Shown: positions 7,476 through 35,738 of the stretch, piece by piece
Layout: each line of letters opens with the position of its first letter
How positions within the stretch are numbered: the stretch's first letter is position 1
Assembly (NCBI GenBank): GCA_947648765.1
Contig: CANSOY010000009.1
Location: forward strand, 1 to 35,820
Reading direction: 5' to 3'
Origin: an uncultured Clostridium sp.
GTDB lineage: Bacteria; Bacillota; Clostridia; TANB77; CAG-508
Length of the DNA stretch: 35,820 bases
Notes under the pieces: generated by a model
Database searches by the model: none
What the model was told of the DNA's origin: nothing
The model's input: only the letters and a program-made list of their open reading frames with translations
Translations under genes and position numbers: made by a program

Positions 7476-8963
7476 TTGGAAAAAAACATGCAGCTAGTGA
7501 AGAAAAATGGTAAGACAAAACAAATACTATGGATTTTCGTTCGTAGCCTACTAATTGCTATTTTTATTGGTACTTCCATTTGGGGAAATATGACGCATGA
7601 GAGATGGGGGGATGAAGCACAAGCATGGCTTTTAGCAAGAGATGCTAGTGTCTCAGAGATTGTGTTCCAGTATGTAAAACCGGAAGGAAGCCCTGTTTTA
7701 TGGCACTTAATCTTAAAGTTTGCCATTACACTTGGGTTAGACTATTCCTTTTATGGGATAATTCCTCTTGTGTTTACTGTGATTGGCTTAATCCTTTTGG
7801 AATTCAAACTAAAAGTGCCATGGTATATCAAGATTTTACTGCCATTTACCTATTATATTTTTTATCAATATAACATCATAGCAAGAAGTTATTGTATGCT
7901 ATTCCCAACCTTATGCTATATCGCTCTAGTGTATCCTAACCGAGCCGAAAAGCCAATCCAATATGCACTTGGACTAGCGCTCCTAAGTAGTATTTGCTTG
8001 CATGGCTGTTTACTTTCGGGAACGTTATTCGTACTCTATTTATTAGAATATCTAAGCAAGAGATTAAAAGAAGAAAAAAGTATTCGTAGCATTTTGGCAG
8101 AAAAGAAGGTATGGGTTCCATTTCTAATCCTAGGATTGTATTATTGCTTCTTAATTTATACACTAATACCACAAGGAGAAATCCCGGTATTCACAAAAGG
8201 GAAAGACTTGAATTTCTGGGAGAAAACGGCAGAAACGATAGGAGAAGCAAGTATTAGTTCGAAAATAACAGAAAAATGGGTTAATGTAGTAGGCTGTATA
8301 TTGACCGGAGGAATTACCATCCTATTCCTAACCCGAGCCAAAAAAGAAGATCAAAAAATGATTTTCCTCTTGGTTCCAATCTTAGTCCTATTCTTAACGT
8401 ATTACTGCAATGCGTGGCACATTGGTATCTTAACCGAAGTCCTATTTTTTGTCTGGTATATCTTTTACCAAGGTATGTCAGAAAAGACCAAGTTGTGGGA
8501 AAAAACAGTGTTACTCGTTGGCATTTGTTTTATTTTAGTTATGCAAGTATTATGGAGTGGAAAGGCTTTCCTAGAGGAGAATAGAAAAATTTATTCCCAT
8601 GGACACACGATAGCAGAAGTATTAAAAGAGCCAGTTCAACAAGGCAAGAAAATTTATGGACTTCAGTATTCTGTAACTGCCATCTTACCATATTTTGAAA
8701 AGAATATTTTTGCGAATTTTCCGAACGAAGACGAGAGTTTTTACCACTGGATTGACCAAAGAGAAAATCCGCAAACAACAGAAGAAATATTAGAAGGGGA
8801 AGCAGACATTTATGTGATTTCAGAAGCCTACCTACCATATTATGTGGATTTAATGGAAAAATTAAGAGAAAAAGGATATACCTTAGTACGCTACAGTAGT
8901 GCTCTTTTAGTAAAAGGAAATACTTATGAATATTCTGGGTATGTGCTAGCAAGTAAAGAATGA
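7476..8963 (+). CDS. GT-C-like membrane glycosyltransferase (predicted)
   Basis: About 495 aa with roughly ten TM segments. The first external loop carries ERWGDEAQAWLLARDASVSEI, an acidic DE motif in the place where GT-C (dolichyl/undecaprenyl-phosphate sugar) transferases keep their catalytic aspartate. Later segments include YNIIARSYCMLFP and a C-terminal soluble part of about 120 residues. The likely job is transfer of a lipid-linked sugar to an external acceptor; donor and acceptor cannot be read from sequence. ATG 7455 has no ribosome binding site and lies only a few nt from the predicted RNA start. TTG 7476 has AAAGGGGA 8 nt upstream, and ATG 7488 is a further option. A hairpin follows the stop. 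Confidence 0.7.
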   Translation: MEKNMQLVKKNGKTKQILWIFVRSLLIAIFIGTSIWGNMTHERWGDEAQAWLLARDASVSEIVFQYVKPEGSPVLWHLILKFAITLGLDYSFYGIIPLVFTVIGLILLEFKLKVPWYIKILLPFTYYIFYQYNIIARSYCMLFPTLCYIALVYPNRAEKPIQYALGLALLSSICLHGCLLSGTLFVLYLLEYLSKRLKEEKSIRSILAEKKVWVPFLILGLYYCFLIYTLIPQGEIPVFTKGKDLNFWEKTAETIGEASISSKITEKWVNVVGCILTGGITILFLTRAKKEDQKMIFLLVPILVLFLTYYCNAWHIGILTEVLFFVWYIFYQGMSEKTKLWEKTVLLVGICFILVMQVLWSGKAFLEENRKIYSHGHTIAEVLKEPVQQGKKIYGLQYSVTAILPYFEKNIFANFPNEDESFYHWIDQRENPQTTEEILEGEADIYVISEAYLPYYVDLMEKLREKGYTLVRYSSALLVKGNTYEYSGYVLASKE

Positions 8964-13557: not shown

Positions 13558-14118
13558 ATGAATAGTATATTAGAATTTGCTAATAGAGAAGAATTTAGAA
13601 ACTGGTTATCTGAAAATTGTTTATCCAATCATGGTGTTTGGCTTTTATTTAGAAAATCTGGAGAACCAAAGACAATAAAAGCAAGTGAAGCACTTGAAGA
13701 AGCACTATGTTTTGGTTGGATTGACGGTCAGATTGTGAGTATAGATGATAAAACCTATAAAAAATATTTTTCTATGCGTAGAGATAAAAGCAAATGGTCT
13801 GAAAAAAATAAAAACTTAACTAAAGTTCTTGAAGAAAGAGGAATTATGACTGAATACGGTAGAAAGAAAATAGAAGAAGCAAAATCTAATGGACAATGGA
13901 ATGCTTCAAAATCCTTAGAAATTACAGAGGAACATATCAGAGAATTATCTGTTATATTAAAAAAATACGAACTTGCATATAAAAATTTTCAGTCAATGTC
14001 CCCATCCGTAAAGAAAACCTATGCCAAAGCATACTTTGATGCTAAAACAGAAGATGGAAGAAAAAATAGAATTGCTTGGATGGTAGATAGACTTAACAAA
14101 AATTTGAAACCAATGTAA
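13558..14118 (+). CDS. YdeI/OmpD-associated (OmdA) family protein
   Basis: 186 aa. Family motifs: FANREEFRNWLSENCLSNHGVWLLFRK, ALCFGWIDGQ, YFSMRRDKSKWSEKNKNL and the C-terminal MSPSVKKTYAKAYFDAKTEDGRKNRIAWMVDRL. Members are cytoplasmic, usually named YdeI/OmdA, and some are linked to stress or bacteriocin/antimicrobial peptide tolerance; the molecular function is unknown. AGAGGGGA lies 7 nt before the ATG. Its last 37 codons lie inside the 1079-bp tandem duplication, so a 3' fragment is repeated at 15086. Confidence 0.88.
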   Translation: MNSILEFANREEFRNWLSENCLSNHGVWLLFRKSGEPKTIKASEALEEALCFGWIDGQIVSIDDKTYKKYFSMRRDKSKWSEKNKNLTKVLEERGIMTEYGRKKIEEAKSNGQWNASKSLEITEEHIRELSVILKKYELAYKNFQSMSPSVKKTYAKAYFDAKTEDGRKNRIAWMVDRLNKNLKPM

Positions 14119-14156
14119 TAATAGATGAATTATATGTAAAGGAAAGGAGTTCCCAA

Positions 14157-14414
14157 ATGGCAGAATTAAGTTCATTAAAAAATATTGGAAAAGAAATAGA
14201 AAGAAAACTAAAAACAATTGGGATAAATTCAGCAGAGGAATTAAAAAAAATTGGAAGTAAAGATACGTGGTTTCGATTAAAATTAAAATATCCAGAAATA
14301 TGCTTAGTACACTTATACACTCTGGAAGGTGCAATTCGTGATATCGAATATAATCAGTTATCGGAAGAAACAAAAAGAGAGTTAAAGGCATTTACAGACC
14401 AATGGAAAGACTAA
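14157..14414 (+). CDS. TfoX C-terminal-domain protein, copy 1
   Basis: An 85-aa protein resembling the TfoX/Sxy C-terminal domain: LSSLKNIGKEIERKLKTIGINSAEELKKIGSKDTWFRLKLKYPEICLVHLYTLEGAI. The LxxLxNIGxxxExxLxxxGI start is a helix-hairpin-helix-like element. Full TfoX regulates competence in gamma-proteobacteria; stand-alone C-terminal domains in Firmicutes have no proven role. GGAAAGGAG precedes the ATG by 8-9 nt. It lies 38 bp after the ydeI-like gene, so the two are probably cotranscribed. Confidence 0.82.
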   Translation: MAELSSLKNIGKEIERKLKTIGINSAEELKKIGSKDTWFRLKLKYPEICLVHLYTLEGAIRDIEYNQLSEETKRELKAFTDQWKD

Positions 14415-14510
14415 AAACTACAATCTGAAATGAGTTGCATTACGGAAGAAAAAATAATTGTTATTATAAAAATTATTTTTATTTTATATATTCCATACGT
14501 AGCAATTCAA

Positions 14511-14559
14511 AGAGAAGTAAATTCAAAGATTTGCTTCTTTTTTCGATGTAGGATATAAT
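14511..14559 (+). promoter_or_regulatory. Composite terminator/promoter before Nudix gene, copy 1
   Basis: A 12-bp hairpin (14511-14522 with 14529-14540, one G-T pair at 14518/14533, loop TCAAAG) ends in T6. TTGCTT within the 3' arm (14531-14536), 17 nt and TATAAT (14554-14559) make the Nudix promoter. ATG 14558 falls in this -10 box, so translation starts later, at 14588. Confidence 0.75.
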
Positions 14560-14587
14560 GAGTAGCAACAAAAGGGAGGAAATGAAG

Positions 14588-15034
14588 ATGGGATACATTT
14601 CAGAAATGAGAAAATACATTGGACATAGTCCAATCATGGCAACCGCTACAACTGCTATTATATATGATAACGAAAAAGGAATTTTATTTGAAAAACGTAC
14701 AGACAATGGCTTGTGGTGTGTTCCAGGAGGTGCGATTGAACTTGGAGAAAGGCTGGAACAAGCACTAGTAAGAGAAATAAAAGAGGAAACAGGGCTCGTG
14801 ATAGCAAACCCACAATTATATGATGTGATTGCCAATGTGCATATGATTTATCCCAACCAAGACGAGGTATACTATACCGATGTAGTCTATGTCGTTACTG
14901 ACTATACGGGAACATTGAGCCATGATGCAGAAAGTACAGAACTCAAATGGTTTCCGATTAACGAATTACCAGAAAATATCATGCAAACACAGATTGCCTA
15001 TATTACAAGATTTGTTCAACCACTGATTAAATAA
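14588..15034 (+). CDS. Nudix hydrolase, copy 1
   Basis: 148 aa. Complete Nudix box GGAIELGERLEQALVREIKEETGL (fits GX5EX7REUXEEXGU), so the Mg-binding glutamates are intact. The N-terminal YISEMRKYIGHSPIMATATTAIIYD and later YYTDVVYVVTDYTG resemble Bacillus-type NUDIX proteins acting on nucleoside diphosphate derivatives; the substrate is undetermined. The start is ATG 14588, 8 nt after GGGAGG (14574-14579). A TTGACA/TAAAAT promoter begins 14 bp after the stop. Confidence 0.92.
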   Translation: MGYISEMRKYIGHSPIMATATTAIIYDNEKGILFEKRTDNGLWCVPGGAIELGERLEQALVREIKEETGLVIANPQLYDVIANVHMIYPNQDEVYYTDVVYVVTDYTGTLSHDAESTELKWFPINELPENIMQTQIAYITRFVQPLIK

Positions 15035-15047
15035 ACCGAAAATGCGA

Positions 15048-15077
15048 TTGACAAACTGCTCTCGTTTATGGTAAAAT
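15048..15077 (+). promoter_or_regulatory. Promoter created at duplication junction (copy of GNAT promoter)
   Basis: TTGACA (15048-15053), 18 nt, TAAAAT (15072-15077). It is the copy-1 version of the promoter at 16127. Because the duplication junction lies 8 bp after the -10, this promoter now reads into the ydeI fragment and copy 2 of tfoX-C, without the structured leader. Confidence 0.7.
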
Positions 15078-15085
15078 ATACCTAT

Positions 15086-15197
15086 CGTAAAGAAAACCTA
15101 TGCCAAAGCATACTTTGATGCTAAAACAGAAGATGGAAGAAAAAATAGAATTGCTTGGATGGTAGATAGACTTAACAAAAATTTGAAACCAATGTAA
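15086..15197 (+). pseudogene. 3' fragment of ydeI-like gene
   Basis: It repeats the last 36 codons plus stop of the gene at 13558-14118 (VKKTYAKAYFDAKTEDG ... NLKPM). It has no start codon or ribosome binding site of its own and is a by-product of the tandem duplication. Confidence 0.9.
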
Positions 15198-15235
15198 TAA
15201 TAGATGAATTATATGTAAAGGAAAGGAGTTCCCAA

Positions 15236-15493
15236 ATGGCAGAATTAAGTTCATTAAAAAATATTGGAAAAGAAATAGAAAGAAAACTAAAAACAATTGG
15301 GATAAATTCAGCAGAGGAATTAAAAAAAATTGGAAGTAAAGATACGTGGTTTCGATTAAAATTAAAATATCCAGAAATATGCTTAGTACACTTATACACT
15401 CTGGAAGGTGCAATTCGTGATATCGAATATAATCAGTTATCGGAAGAAACAAAAAGAGAGTTAAAGGCATTTACAGACCAATGGAAAGACTAA
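15236..15493 (+). CDS. TfoX C-terminal-domain protein, copy 2
   Basis: Identical to the 85-aa protein at 14157-14414, with the same ribosome binding site. It differs only in context: instead of following an intact ydeI-like gene it is downstream of the promoter at 15048 and a ydeI fragment. Confidence 0.82.
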   Translation: MAELSSLKNIGKEIERKLKTIGINSAEELKKIGSKDTWFRLKLKYPEICLVHLYTLEGAIRDIEYNQLSEETKRELKAFTDQWKD

Positions 15494-15589
15494 AAACTAC
15501 AATCTGAAATGAGTTGCATTACGGAAGAAAAAATAATTGTTATTATAAAAATTATTTTTATTTTATATATTCCATACGTAGCAATTCAA

Positions 15590-15638
15590 AGAGAAGTAAA
15601 TTCAAAGATTTGCTTCTTTTTTCGATGTAGGATATAAT
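15590..15638 (+). promoter_or_regulatory. Composite terminator/promoter before Nudix gene, copy 2
   Basis: Exact copy of 14511-14559: a 12-bp hairpin with T6, TTGCTT (15610-15615), 17 nt, TATAAT (15633-15638). Confidence 0.75.
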
Positions 15639-15666
15639 GAGTAGCAACAAAAGGGAGGAAATGAAG

Positions 15667-16113
15667 ATGGGATACATTTCAGAAATGAGAAAATACATTG
15701 GACATAGTCCAATCATGGCAACCGCTACAACTGCTATTATATATGATAACGAAAAAGGAATTTTATTTGAAAAACGTACAGACAATGGCTTGTGGTGTGT
15801 TCCAGGAGGTGCGATTGAACTTGGAGAAAGGCTGGAACAAGCACTAGTAAGAGAAATAAAAGAGGAAACAGGGCTCGTGATAGCAAACCCACAATTATAT
15901 GATGTGATTGCCAATGTGCATATGATTTATCCCAACCAAGACGAGGTATACTATACCGATGTAGTCTATGTCGTTACTGACTATACGGGAACATTGAGCC
16001 ATGATGCAGAAAGTACAGAACTCAAATGGTTTCCGATTAACGAATTACCAGAAAATATCATGCAAACACAGATTGCCTATATTACAAGATTTGTTCAACC
16101 ACTGATTAAATAA
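15667..16113 (+). CDS. Nudix hydrolase, copy 2
   Basis: Identical in protein sequence to 14588-15034 (148 aa, intact Nudix box). The cell therefore carries two identical, separately promoted copies if the assembly is right. The start is chosen as in copy 1. Confidence 0.92.
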   Translation: MGYISEMRKYIGHSPIMATATTAIIYDNEKGILFEKRTDNGLWCVPGGAIELGERLEQALVREIKEETGLVIANPQLYDVIANVHMIYPNQDEVYYTDVVYVVTDYTGTLSHDAESTELKWFPINELPENIMQTQIAYITRFVQPLIK

Positions 16114-16126
16114 ACCGAAAATGCGA

Positions 16127-16156
16127 TTGACAAACTGCTCTCGTTTATGGTAAAAT
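16127..16156 (+). promoter_or_regulatory. Promoter of GNAT gene and its leader
   Basis: A consensus TTGACA (16127-16132), an 18-nt spacer and TAAAAT (16151-16156). The expected start, about 16163-16165, coincides with the first base of the predicted leader helix P1. Confidence 0.75.
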
Positions 16157-16162
16157 ATACCT

Positions 16163-16298
16163 ATGTTTTAAGAGTATGTCTAATAGCATTTTGCTAGAGC
16201 GACATAGGATAACAGGCGTTATCTACACGAATAAAGTAAGAAATAAACCTTACAAGGAGTCTTAAACCAAGATTTCTTTGTGAGGTATTTTTTATTTC
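16163..16298 (+). promoter_or_regulatory. Structured leader RNA with switchable terminator (riboswitch or attenuator candidate)
   Basis: Reading the RNA by eye gives: P1 (16165-16173 with 16260-16267, 8 bp, one bulged U at 16169) closing a junction; P2 (16175-16180 with 16201-16206, 6 bp, topped by UAGC/GCUA at 16184-16187/16193-16196); P3 (GAUAAC 16208-16213 with GUUAUC 16218-16223, loop AGGC); P4 (GUAAG 16236-16240 with CUUAC 16249-16253). The 3' strand of P4 is also the 5' arm of an 11-bp terminator stem (16247-16257 with 16276-16286, two G-U pairs), followed by A and six U. P4 and the terminator therefore exclude each other. A 29-codon reading frame (16176-16265) also crosses the leader, but only an AAGAG, far too close to the ATG, could act as ribosome binding site. 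I do not recognise the RNA class. Confidence 0.7.
16247..16298 (+). terminator. Conditional terminator in GNAT leader
   Basis: The stem 16247-16257/16276-16286 with an 18-nt loop is followed by ATTTTTTATTT. It ends 18 bp before the GNAT start codon (its U-tract abuts the AAGGAGG), so read-through is needed for expression. Confidence 0.75.
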
Positions 16299-32254: not shown

Positions 32255-32380
32255 TAAAAAGGGCTATGTAGCATAGCCCTTTTTTGCTGGTTATTTGGTA
32301 GGAGTGCCAAGGTTTCCTACATCTCTTGTTAACCTATTACTAGGTGCGTGGAAGGCACGAAAATTTTCCACCTCAAATGT
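32255..32380 (-). ncRNA. Predicted small RNA (about 125 nt), unclassified
   Basis: This stretch has no gene but, read leftward, it lies between a strong promoter (32387-32415) and the terminator at 32256-32285. The RNA would fold into successive hairpins: GUGGAA/UUCCAC near the 5' end, ACCUA-guaa-UAGGU in the middle, and GUAGGA/UCCUAC enclosed by GGUUA/UAACC before the terminator. There is no start codon with a ribosome binding site, and no same-strand gene downstream to act as a leader for. It does not match SRP RNA, tmRNA or 6S by length or by motifs I know. Confidence 0.6.
32256..32285. terminator. Bidirectional intrinsic terminator
   Basis: GGGCTATG (32261-32268) pairs with CATAGCCC (32272-32279), loop TAG, flanked by A5 and T6. 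It ends the DUF2142 transcript rightward and the predicted small RNA leftward. Confidence 0.92.
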
Positions 32381-32386
32381 ATTCTA

Positions 32387-32609: not shown

Positions 32610-35600
32610 ATGAAAAAAGAAGAGAGAACTGAGATTAAAAGCCGTATGTTAGCAGGAGAAACGGTAGAAGAAATTTTGCAAGATGCCAAATTCCAAGGAA
32701 GAGAGGAAGAGTTACGAAAAGTAGCGAGTAATTACCAAAGACTTAGCCTTGTCGCAAAAGGTATGCCATATACCGAAATTGCAAGACAAGAACTCTTAGC
32801 CAAAGGGATTACAAACCCAGACGAACAGCAAATAAAAGGAATATATAAAGCGGTAGCAGTAATCGCAAGTGTTGGAAAATTAGTAGAACCAGTAAGAGCC
32901 AAAAGAGAAGAAGTAAAACGAAGATTAGCAGAAGGGCAAAGTGTGCAAGAAATTGTGGCCGACCGAACGCTTAATGTATGTGAAGAAGCCGTAAAAGCAT
33001 GGCAAGAAAAGGACAAGAAAGCGAAACCACAAAAGAAAGAAAGAGCAAAAAAAGCAGAGAAACAAGTCAAGAAAAGAACGCGTCCAACCAAAGAAGAAAG
33101 AGAACACATCATTACACAAATTTTGCTTGGTAAATCCCCAGAAGAGATAAGCAAAATGGAGGAATTGAAAGAACTTTCACAAGAAGGTATCCAGCAAGTT
33201 TGCCAAGAGGAAAACTGGGTAATCGATGCCATATGCTTAGTAGATTATGAAACGATTGCAAACGATACAGGAAGAAGCAAAGATAGTGTCCGAAACTCTG
33301 CACAAAATAAGAGTTTTCAAGGAGAAACGATTGCCCAAATTCGAGCACGAAAAAAAGAACAACTAGAGGAACGTATCCAAAAAGAGGGAAAAGAAAAGAT
33401 TGAAACAATCGCACAAGAATTAGAAATTGACCTTGCAGTAGCCCAAAGAATAGCAAGCCAGTGGCAGCCAACAGAAGAAAAGGGGAAAAAGAAAATTCGC
33501 CGAAGAGAAGATAGCTTAGCGGTTGTCGAACAAATGCTAAAGGGGAAAACACCAGAAGAAATTGGACAAATGGATGAATTTCGAGGATTTTCATTCGCCA
33601 GTATTCAAGCCCTTTGCCAAGAAAAAGCATGGATGAAAGATGCGTTAAGATTGGTGCCATATACTAGAATTGCACAGGAAATTTCGGTCCGTAATGCACA
33701 AGTTTACAAAGACGGGAGAGAATACACCATAGATGGAAAAAGTCTGACCCAAATCCGTATGGAAAAAGAAGCAGAAGTACAACTAGCCTTGCAAGAGGAA
33801 AACGATGTAGAAAAAATCGCTACACAGTTCCAAGTAGATCTAGCAGTTGTTTTGGAATATCAACAAATGCAAGCAAAGAAAACAGAACAAAAAAGCCAGC
33901 AATCCATACGAGCAAGTAGCCAAGAAGTAAGAGATAAAGTATTGGACCAACTATTAGATGGAAAAACGCCAAAAGAAATTAGTGAGATGGAAGAATTTCA
34001 GCACTATACCCTAGAAAGTCTAGAGGCATTTTGCCAAAACAAAACTTGGATGATACTAGCCCTACAGTTGGTATCTTATGACCAAATTGCGGAACAAATG
34101 GGGATAAAAAAGAACAGTGTAAAGGCTGCCGGTTTTTCAACGACTTATCAAGGAAAAAGCATCAATCAAATGAGAAAAGAAAAGACACAAAAACTAAAAG
34201 AGGGCATCGAAAAAAGAGAAAAATCAATCGAAACTTTGGCACAAGAACTGGGCATTGATTTAGAAGTAGCAAGAGAGGCACTACGAAAAGCGGAACAAAA
34301 ACAGAAAAAAGCAGAGCGTGCAGGAAGAGGCAAAAGACCTGTAGCAGAAAAGAAAGAAGAAAGCCCAGAACCACAATTTCAGCTAAAACTAGAACCAGAG
34401 CTAGAATTAAAGCCAGCACCGAAACCAGAACCAGTAGTAGTATCAGCACCAGTACCAACCCAAAGACCGATACCGAAACCAACCCCAACTCCAGTGCAAC
34501 AATCTACACAGCCAACCGTAAGTAGAGAAGAAAGAAAACAAGCCGTACAAAAAAATTCAGCCTATCTACGTATGCGTATTATGCAAGGAAAATATGAGCG
34601 TAAAAAACAAGGTGAAGATAAGCAAAAGAAGGAACAAACGGTGGCAGGGGCAGTTCAAAGCGAAAAAGAAAGAGAACTTATTGAAAAAACATTAGCAAGT
34701 ATGGAAGCAAGAATAGCAGAAGCGGAGCAAGAAATAAGCAGACTCGAAAGAAAAACAATCATGCAAGCCTTGTACCAAGAAATAAAGGTGCTAGAACAAC
34801 ATACCCTTGTTTCCGCTCAAGCAGAGAGATTTCGCAAAATCATGTATAGTAATGCAATGGATTTATATATGCATGCCTGCGGACCAGAACCACATGCTCG
34901 AATGGAACGTATGCAAAGAGCAGCAGACCGTAAAATGATTGGTGCGATTGAAGCGGAAATTGAAAAGACTCGCGACCTAGAAAAACTACAAAGTTTCTCT
35001 AGCCAGTTGTATGAAATAAAAGGTCAAAATATATTTGCAAGAGATAGATTAACCAGCCTTGTTAGTAACAAAATGACAAGAATACGTAGTGAACAAGCCG
35101 TTTATCGCTTGTATCATGAAGTGCCACCAGAAATTGAGCAAATTATTGCAGGAGTTGCTTCCGGAAATTTAGATGTCGAAAAGGCAAATGAAACCATAGA
35201 GGCTCTTGCAGAACAAAAAGTAGCCAATCATCCAGCAAAGGGACGTTTTGCTTTAACCAAAGAACAACAAAGACGACAAATTCAAATGCAAATCCGAGGA
35301 GTGCTTTCCAAACAAGCAGAGCGTTTTCCAATTCAGGCTCCAGAGGTAACCTATCGATTGCTACAACAGATTGGAATTCAAGAAACGATGCTGAACGTAA
35401 AAGCGATTGTAGATAATCAAGTTGAACGAAAAAGATTTACAGAGGCTAAGGCATTTTGCAATGTATATGGAAGAGCAGATAATGGTTCGACAAAAGTAGA
35501 TTTTTATGGAATTCGCAATCAAATTCGTAACGCAGAAATTGGAGATTTAGTGCTACGTGGCATACAAAAACAAATTTCACCAGAAGGAGCAGCCAAGTTC

Positions 35601-35738
35601 TGGGAAACCCTAGAAACAGGAATACGAATGGGAAATGTGAAGTTATCTCAAGTTGTTTTAGGAAAAACAGCAGATGGCACAACAGACATTACCCTTGCAG
35701 ATATATGGCCAGATAATCTAAGACAACAAAATCGATAA
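32610..35738 (+). CDS. Large protein with three HTH-like tandem repeats, function unknown
   Basis: 1042 aa, cytoplasmic (no signal or TM). Three units of 138-139 residues occupy about 161-284, 297-420 and 436-563. Each unit holds three HTH-like segments: LLxGKxPEEIxxMxEF with xxLxxxCQxxxW (171, 309, 448); VxYxxIAxxxxxxxxxV; and IExIAQELxIDLxVAxxI. Two shorter related pieces (MLAGETVEEI at 13, LAEGQSVQEI at 106) precede them. A Pro/Glu-rich hinge (about 585-635, KPAPKPEPV, PKPTPTPV) leads to a coiled-coil stretch (about 680-740) and a helical C-terminal domain of about 280 residues. GGAGG lies 7 nt before the ATG. I recognise no family. A DNA- or RNA-binding scaffold is an inference from the HTH-like repeats. 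The gene is followed by 82 bp to the window edge with nothing recognisable. Confidence 0.85.
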   Translation: MKKEERTEIKSRMLAGETVEEILQDAKFQGREEELRKVASNYQRLSLVAKGMPYTEIARQELLAKGITNPDEQQIKGIYKAVAVIASVGKLVEPVRAKREEVKRRLAEGQSVQEIVADRTLNVCEEAVKAWQEKDKKAKPQKKERAKKAEKQVKKRTRPTKEEREHIITQILLGKSPEEISKMEELKELSQEGIQQVCQEENWVIDAICLVDYETIANDTGRSKDSVRNSAQNKSFQGETIAQIRARKKEQLEERIQKEGKEKIETIAQELEIDLAVAQRIASQWQPTEEKGKKKIRRREDSLAVVEQMLKGKTPEEIGQMDEFRGFSFASIQALCQEKAWMKDALRLVPYTRIAQEISVRNAQVYKDGREYTIDGKSLTQIRMEKEAEVQLALQEENDVEKIATQFQVDLAVVLEYQQMQAKKTEQKSQQSIRASSQEVRDKVLDQLLDGKTPKEISEMEEFQHYTLESLEAFCQNKTWMILALQLVSYDQIAEQMGIKKNSVKAAGFSTTYQGKSINQMRKEKTQKLKEGIEKREKSIETLAQELGIDLEVAREALRKAEQKQKKAERAGRGKRPVAEKKEESPEPQFQLKLEPELELKPAPKPEPVVVSAPVPTQRPIPKPTPTPVQQSTQPTVSREERKQAVQKNSAYLRMRIMQGKYERKKQGEDKQKKEQTVAGAVQSEKERELIEKTLASMEARIAEAEQEISRLERKTIMQALYQEIKVLEQHTLVSAQAERFRKIMYSNAMDLYMHACGPEPHARMERMQRAADRKMIGAIEAEIEKTRDLEKLQSFSSQLYEIKGQNIFARDRLTSLVSNKMTRIRSEQAVYRLYHEVPPEIEQIIAGVASGNLDVEKANETIEALAEQKVANHPAKGRFALTKEQQRRQIQMQIRGVLSKQAERFPIQAPEVTYRLLQQIGIQETMLNVKAIVDNQVERKRFTEAKAFCNVYGRADNGSTKVDFYGIRNQIRNAEIGDLVLRGIQKQISPEGAAKFWETLETGIRMGNVKLSQVVLGKTADGTTDITLADIWPDNLRQQNR

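Follow-up and report, generated by a model that had tools for sequence, protein, structure and literature searches.

The gene at the end of the window

The window (the whole stretch of 35,820 nt analysed) carries, close to the end of the contig, a gene for a protein of 1042 amino acids in which an array of HTH-containing units is followed by a helical domain. This domain defines a protein family, here called B, and the window protein is referred to as its array form. The following features were recognised (L numbers below designate loci, and G numbers genomes):

32610..35738, + strand: gene for array-form B, 1042 aa, ATG start; open reading frame, 82 bp from its end to the contig end
32610..33080, + strand: unit 0, degenerate (aa 1-157); unit profile i-E 0.011
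33081..33497, + strand: repeat unit 1 (aa 158-296); three HTH by homology to units 2 and 3
33498..33914, + strand: repeat unit 2 (aa 297-435); three HTH in the AF2 model
33915..34325, + strand: repeat unit 3 (aa 436-572); three HTH in the AF2 model
34326..34559, + strand: linker with Pro-rich hinge (aa 573-650), from the sequence
34527..35735, + strand: conserved helical C-terminal domain (aa 640-1042), which defines family B; alignment and AF2 model
35658..35735, + strand: terminal beta hairpin (aa 1017-1042) with motif LGKT.DG...ITLADIW; best-conserved segment; alignment and model

The three tandem units that a sequence-only reading had described, with spacings of 138 and 139 residues, were borne out by the positions of their anchors (LLGKSPEEI at aa 172, LKGKTPEEI at aa 310 and LDGKTPKEI at aa 449) and by their similarity. 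Pairwise identity among units 1-3 was 33-39% (45/137, 52/135 and 49/132 aligned columns), and the pair scores were 202-252, compared with a shuffle maximum of 74 (300 shuffles per pair). The two degenerate pieces noted at the N-terminus match a degenerate copy of the unit, to which the unit profile aligned at aa 2-145. By eye, this unit 0 resembles the units of L090, the unit of L100 and a remnant found in L106.

An AF2 model of units 2 and 3, based on a seven-row alignment that included units of relatives, reached a mean pLDDT of 86 and predicted three tri-helical HTHs per unit, with a small beta wing on the second; at a pTM of only 0.48, the model does not fix how the domains pack against each other. 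The modelled HTHs are tri-helical with a turn between helices 2 and 3, as in the HTH superfamily fold, in agreement with the three HTH-like segments per unit that had been read from the sequence. The earlier estimate of about ten HTH modules in one chain likewise stood, with nine predicted in units 1-3 and up to three more in unit 0. A spectrin-like bundle and a pure coiled coil, the outcomes named earlier as speaking against that reading, were ruled out for the units by this model, which predicted HTHs instead. The best structural matches of the units were mostly DNA-binding HTH proteins (Mos1 and Tc3 transposases, SNAPc and LiaR), at low VIA-align Z values of 5.0-5.6, and Foldseek gave no match to the unit model under E 0.001. 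Units 1-3 are near neutral (net charges of -5, -2 and +1) and unit 0 has a net charge of +11; unit 0 excepted, every other unit measured lies between -5 and +6. The helix-3 stretches taken from the window model are mostly not basic.

The window protein exceeded the Pfam cut-off for HTH_36 (30.1 vs 25 bits) over two stretches, the best being 22 residues at aa 209-230, and matched HTH_23, HTH_10 and Sigma70_r4_2 more weakly. In the family libraries searched, which included curated families, PHROGs and PADLOC, no characterised family spanning the protein was found, in line with the earlier remark that no family with such a layout was known. The PHROGs matches were short and weak (the best, 2.1e-4, covered aa 5-76), and PADLOC gave no match for the window protein.

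The Pro-rich hinge reported earlier is present at about aa 590-640, and the helical C-terminal domain beyond it was also recovered in a predicted structure (AF2 pLDDT 84, pTM 0.64), which ends in a beta hairpin carrying the motif LGKT.DG...ITLxDIW. A coiled coil had also been noted; the helices were confirmed, at about aa 685-730, but they were modelled as ordinary helices of the C-terminal domain rather than as a coiled coil. For this domain Foldseek gave no match under 0.001 and no clear match was seen among the PDB and viral structures listed; the best VIA-align Z, 11.6 at an rmsd of 19.9, is within the range for common helical arrangements. No enzyme domain was seen in B in a Pfam profile search.

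Family B and its partner protein A

Family B is defined by its C-terminal ~400 aa; the relatives align there, and only some of them align over the array. The array, which the sequence-only reading had treated as the main feature of the protein, is its variable part, while the conserved part is the C-terminal domain that this reading overlooked. Most relatives are about 450 aa long, with one N-terminal HTH (sequences such as GFDLELISFELDIP) and a gene for a separate, acidic partner, A, directly upstream. This arrangement had also escaped notice, together with the fact that the array form goes with loss of the partner.

The profile search for taxonomic spread that had been recommended was run on 390 genomes from the window's bacterial family and found B in 34 of them, representing 13 of 39 genera. 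Across 391 class-level genomes, the profile recovered the window's own genome and two marginal matches in other families (E 8.7e-5 and 5.8e-4); among the genomes searched, B is thus nearly confined to the window's bacterial family. The second genome of the window's genus gave no match to the profile. The named relatives are Clostridia MAGs, some of rabbit, sheep, goat or chicken origin according to their records. The phage, plasmid and viral contig sets searched contained no match to B, and its classification as a mobile-element or phage gene was dropped. Literature searches, which covered open PMC text, listed no description of the family.

Protein A is encoded directly upstream of B in 23 of 35 B loci, a set that excludes G180, where a piece of 41 aa lies at the edge of a contig, and L092, where A is accompanied by a remnant of B. 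The A proteins of paired loci have 277-577 aa and are usually acidic: 24 of the 26 A-profile matches are net negative, those of L034 and L098 being basic. By eye, A begins with a beta-alpha domain, followed by an acidic linker and then by two helical segments that look related; hhalign detected the mutual similarity of these segments (E 1.2e-4, probability 55%). Homology of these helical modules to the units of B was considered and rejected, as hhalign found none. Two A genes, L043 10480-11994 (- strand) and L145 2-1255 (- strand), appear by eye to carry an extra copy of the helical segment; A may therefore also grow by internal duplication. Terminator-like and promoter-like sequences were seen by eye between A and B. 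Operator repeats flanking the genes, sought by eye in the upstream and downstream stretches, were dropped as a candidate.

A was detected in 27 of the 390 genomes, 21 of which also have B; in one of the six genomes having A without B, the match was weak and broken. In three loci, a third protein, C, was found beside A. It consists of the HTH common to short-form B followed by TPR repeats:

L081, 6641-7558: HTH-TPR protein C
L142, 7032-7691: HTH-TPR protein C
L147, 668-1549, - strand: HTH-TPR protein C

In all three, C lies just upstream of A; L142 and L147 belong to the genomes with A and no B. The three copies show 53-63% identity to the first, which exceeds the usual identity between A or B proteins. 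C was found in seven of the 390 genomes, with several of the copies being fragments. None of A, B and the HTH-TPR protein C was found as a described family in the libraries searched.

Array forms lack the partner

A profile of the single HTH matched 24 of the 35 B loci, 22 of which have A, while 10 of the 11 non-matching loci lack it. Both features were present in 22 loci, the HTH only in two (L039 and L099), A only in one (L104) and neither in 10 (Fisher 3.7e-6, a value that ignores relatedness). A is thus associated with the single-HTH form of B, and the two proteins would probably be in direct contact. The nine array-bearing loci (window, L030, L041, L102, L107, L100, L090, L093 and L039, the latter with half a unit) all lack A. 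No A was found in any of the eight array-bearing genomes tested, the window's included and L090's outside the set, in a whole-genome search that scored a small number of candidates in each genome, was positive in five genomes known to have A and missed A in G756; the latter was recovered by an ORF search, so the presence counts given here are lower bounds. In family B, therefore, A is swapped for an array.

In a tree of the C-terminal domain (three short pieces were left out, and alignment A1 excluded L046), the lone array form L093 nests on short branches with the paired forms L081 and L094 (support 100/97); the window groups elsewhere with L039 and L100 (84/60), and the L030 group is also separate (98/98). 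The array of L093 is of another kind, with four units of ~100 aa. Because L093 nests with paired forms and has a different kind of array, partner loss and array gain appear, on this reading of the tree, to have occurred at least twice. L090 may be a third case of the swap, or may share its origin with unit 0 of the window protein.

In genus g2, a leuS-adhE neighbourhood is common to the paired locus L097 and to the lone array forms L030, L041, L102 and L100. Across genera, the neighbours of B are core genes (leuS, adhE, ytqA, coaD, an ABC-F gene and polC by profile, others by eye), and no common pathway was seen among the annotated neighbours. Among related genomes, A-B or B lies in differing intergenic gaps of one neighbourhood in L032, L038, L036, L040, L096 and L099, and also in L090 and L098; no transposase was recognised at these position-shifted loci. 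Decayed copies or pseudogenes were found in L104, L105, L106, L107 and L046. The L106 remnant (8223-8645) codes for 140 aa in which an array-type HTH is fused directly to a terminal ITLxDIW-like motif, as if the middle had been deleted; by eye, it sits between ileS-like and RNase-Y-like genes.

Variation within the arrays

The first 22 codons of units 1-3 of L093 are identical, while nine of the next 12 differ, all by non-synonymous changes. Only 16 of the 70 other codons differ (9/12 vs 16/70, Fisher 8e-4). When placed by eye, the variable codons fall at the third-helix position of an HTH. The changes in this relative are thus concentrated in one predicted helix. Pairwise NG86 dN/dS ratios among these three units were 4.1 (reflecting just 15 non-synonymous differences and one synonymous), 1.7 and 1.2, and 0.78-0.88 when compared with unit 4. 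For comparison, the ratio was 0.45-0.53 for B or its C-terminal domain in L081, L093 and L094, 0.20-0.32 for A pairs and 0.11 for leuS of L030 and L102. The recent units of L030 gave no sign of positive selection (NG86 ratio 0.43-0.52).

Among the diverged units of the window type, the third helices of the model vary more than the other segments of each HTH (mean 2.24 bits vs 1.70 for helices 1 and 2), a value equalled by one of 138 circular shifts. For the single HTH that the paired forms carry, variability was similar in helix 3 (1.99 bits) and helix 1 (2.06 bits), with helix limits set by eye and L039 left out.

A diversity-generating retroelement was considered and rejected for L093. In G700 (87% complete), the unit DNA matches its own array only and no template repeat was found; the next best match had E 1.7e-4, with 72% over about 90 bases. 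A reverse transcriptase of G700 is on a contig other than that of the array.

Comparison with known systems

RNPP regulators have a Cro/C1-type HTH followed by a helical repeat domain of TPR type. B resembles them in having HTH and then a helical domain, and C in joining HTH and TPR. However, neither B nor C matched HTH_3, and the C-terminal domain of B had no Pfam TPR match, while C has TPR. Single HTH segments of the units match Pfam HTH_36 and HTH_23, although only as 22-residue pieces and not as the architecture of B.

The TniQ/TnsD proteins of Tn7-like transposons, as described in PMC10293859, share a common core; a long form with a diverse multi-HTH extension reads the target site itself, and a short form depends on a further target selector. 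B is similar in being either long with HTH domains of its own or short with an additional partner. It differs in having no TniQ match (hmmscan of the window protein, E up to 10) and in that its HTHs are N-terminal and in tandem units; nor were TnsABC or transposon genes recognised among the annotated neighbours (10 + 10 proteins, a subset of all neighbours). TALE-like proteins also have tandem helical repeats differing at few positions, but these are of 30-43 aa according to PMC5472282, while the B units have 137-139 aa (~100 aa in L093) and contain tri-helical HTHs.

A possible role for family B

A chromosome-organising role, suggested earlier for the window protein, is disfavoured by the near-neutral charge of units 1-3 and by the patchy distribution and frequent decay of the gene. 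We tentatively propose that B is an adaptor combining a conserved tail with an exchangeable reader. The C-terminal helical domain, with its terminal ITLxDIW motif, would dock a common target or effector, and the N-terminal HTH part would place B at chosen sites, most likely on DNA to judge from the fold and its variation. In the usual form, one conserved HTH would work with, and probably bind, the acidic A encoded just upstream; in window-like forms, from which A and the single HTH are gone, the tandem array would supply the reading function within B. The array changes fast, by unit duplication and, in L093, also by amino acid changes concentrated in a predicted recognition helix, as would be expected if the reader repeatedly shifted to new targets. 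The patchy presence and the decayed copies would fit an accessory role under variable pressure, for example the control of foreign or fast-changing DNA. The core of this proposal, a tail docking a target or effector and a reader made of HTH plus A or of a built-in diversifying array, is a real possibility that still falls short of probable. More doubtful is its fuller form, in which the interchangeable readers include arrays that evolve by duplication and positive selection on recognition helices, perhaps tracking fast-changing foreign DNA. PRDM9 and the KRAB zinc-finger proteins are the comparison for array evolution by unit duplication and selection on recognition helices. Should the array read DNA, commensal Clostridia would possess a modular reader that evolves in nature and offers many natural variants for comparison; B would then also be an example of a protein that has dispensed with a partner by internalising its function, apparently more than once. 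The swap of array for partner also offers a simple test of the role of A.

DNA is the likeliest ligand of the units, with their near-neutral charge as a caution; for this reason a protein ligand stays a serious rival. The HTH array might be a protein-binding scaffold whose third helices grip a changing protein, such as one of phage or toxin origin, with A serving the same purpose and no nucleic acid being bound. The negative charge of most A-profile matches, the fast evolution and the patchiness suit this alternative as well, but the closest structural matches, mostly to DNA-binding HTHs, and the Pfam HTH families matched do not, and we regard it as unlikely. A somewhat smaller chance is given to B simply regulating a few genes of the chromosome, as an ordinary transcription factor or RNA-binding protein specific to the lineage, whose N-terminus drifts and whose array variation has no special role. 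Its chromosomal position among core genes and the ratios of 0.20-0.56 in the B and A pairs compared, which indicate purifying selection, are consistent with this, although the replacement of A by an array and the concentration of changes in one helix exceed what drift would give, and the decayed copies show that B is dispensable. Least probable is that A and B jointly form a selfish or defence module, resembling a toxin-antitoxin pair or acting against phages, of which the array forms would be self-contained versions. The patchy presence, the pseudogenes and the local changes of position are offset by annotated neighbours that are core and not defence genes, by the absence of an enzyme domain and of matches in the phage, plasmid and viral sets mentioned above, and by a sole PADLOC match, of L030 to mad1, that is at HTH level; assignment of B to a PADLOC defence family was dropped.

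An adaptor of the proposed kind remains the simplest account of B.

Other features of the window

A Skipping-rope RNA (RF02924) was found at 32290-32381 on the - strand, between a DUF2142 gene and B, with a score of 55.4 bits (cut-off 36.7); sites resembling a promoter and a terminator lie on the strand of this RNA. It was absent from the 36 other loci scanned, and its conservation beside B was dropped as a candidate feature, being seen in the window locus only. A promoter scan upstream of the window B gene gave no more matches than in shuffles. Elsewhere in the window, 1079 bp are exactly duplicated in tandem (14007-15085 and 15086-16164), with two NUDIX genes scoring alike, which reflects either a recent event or an assembly artefact.
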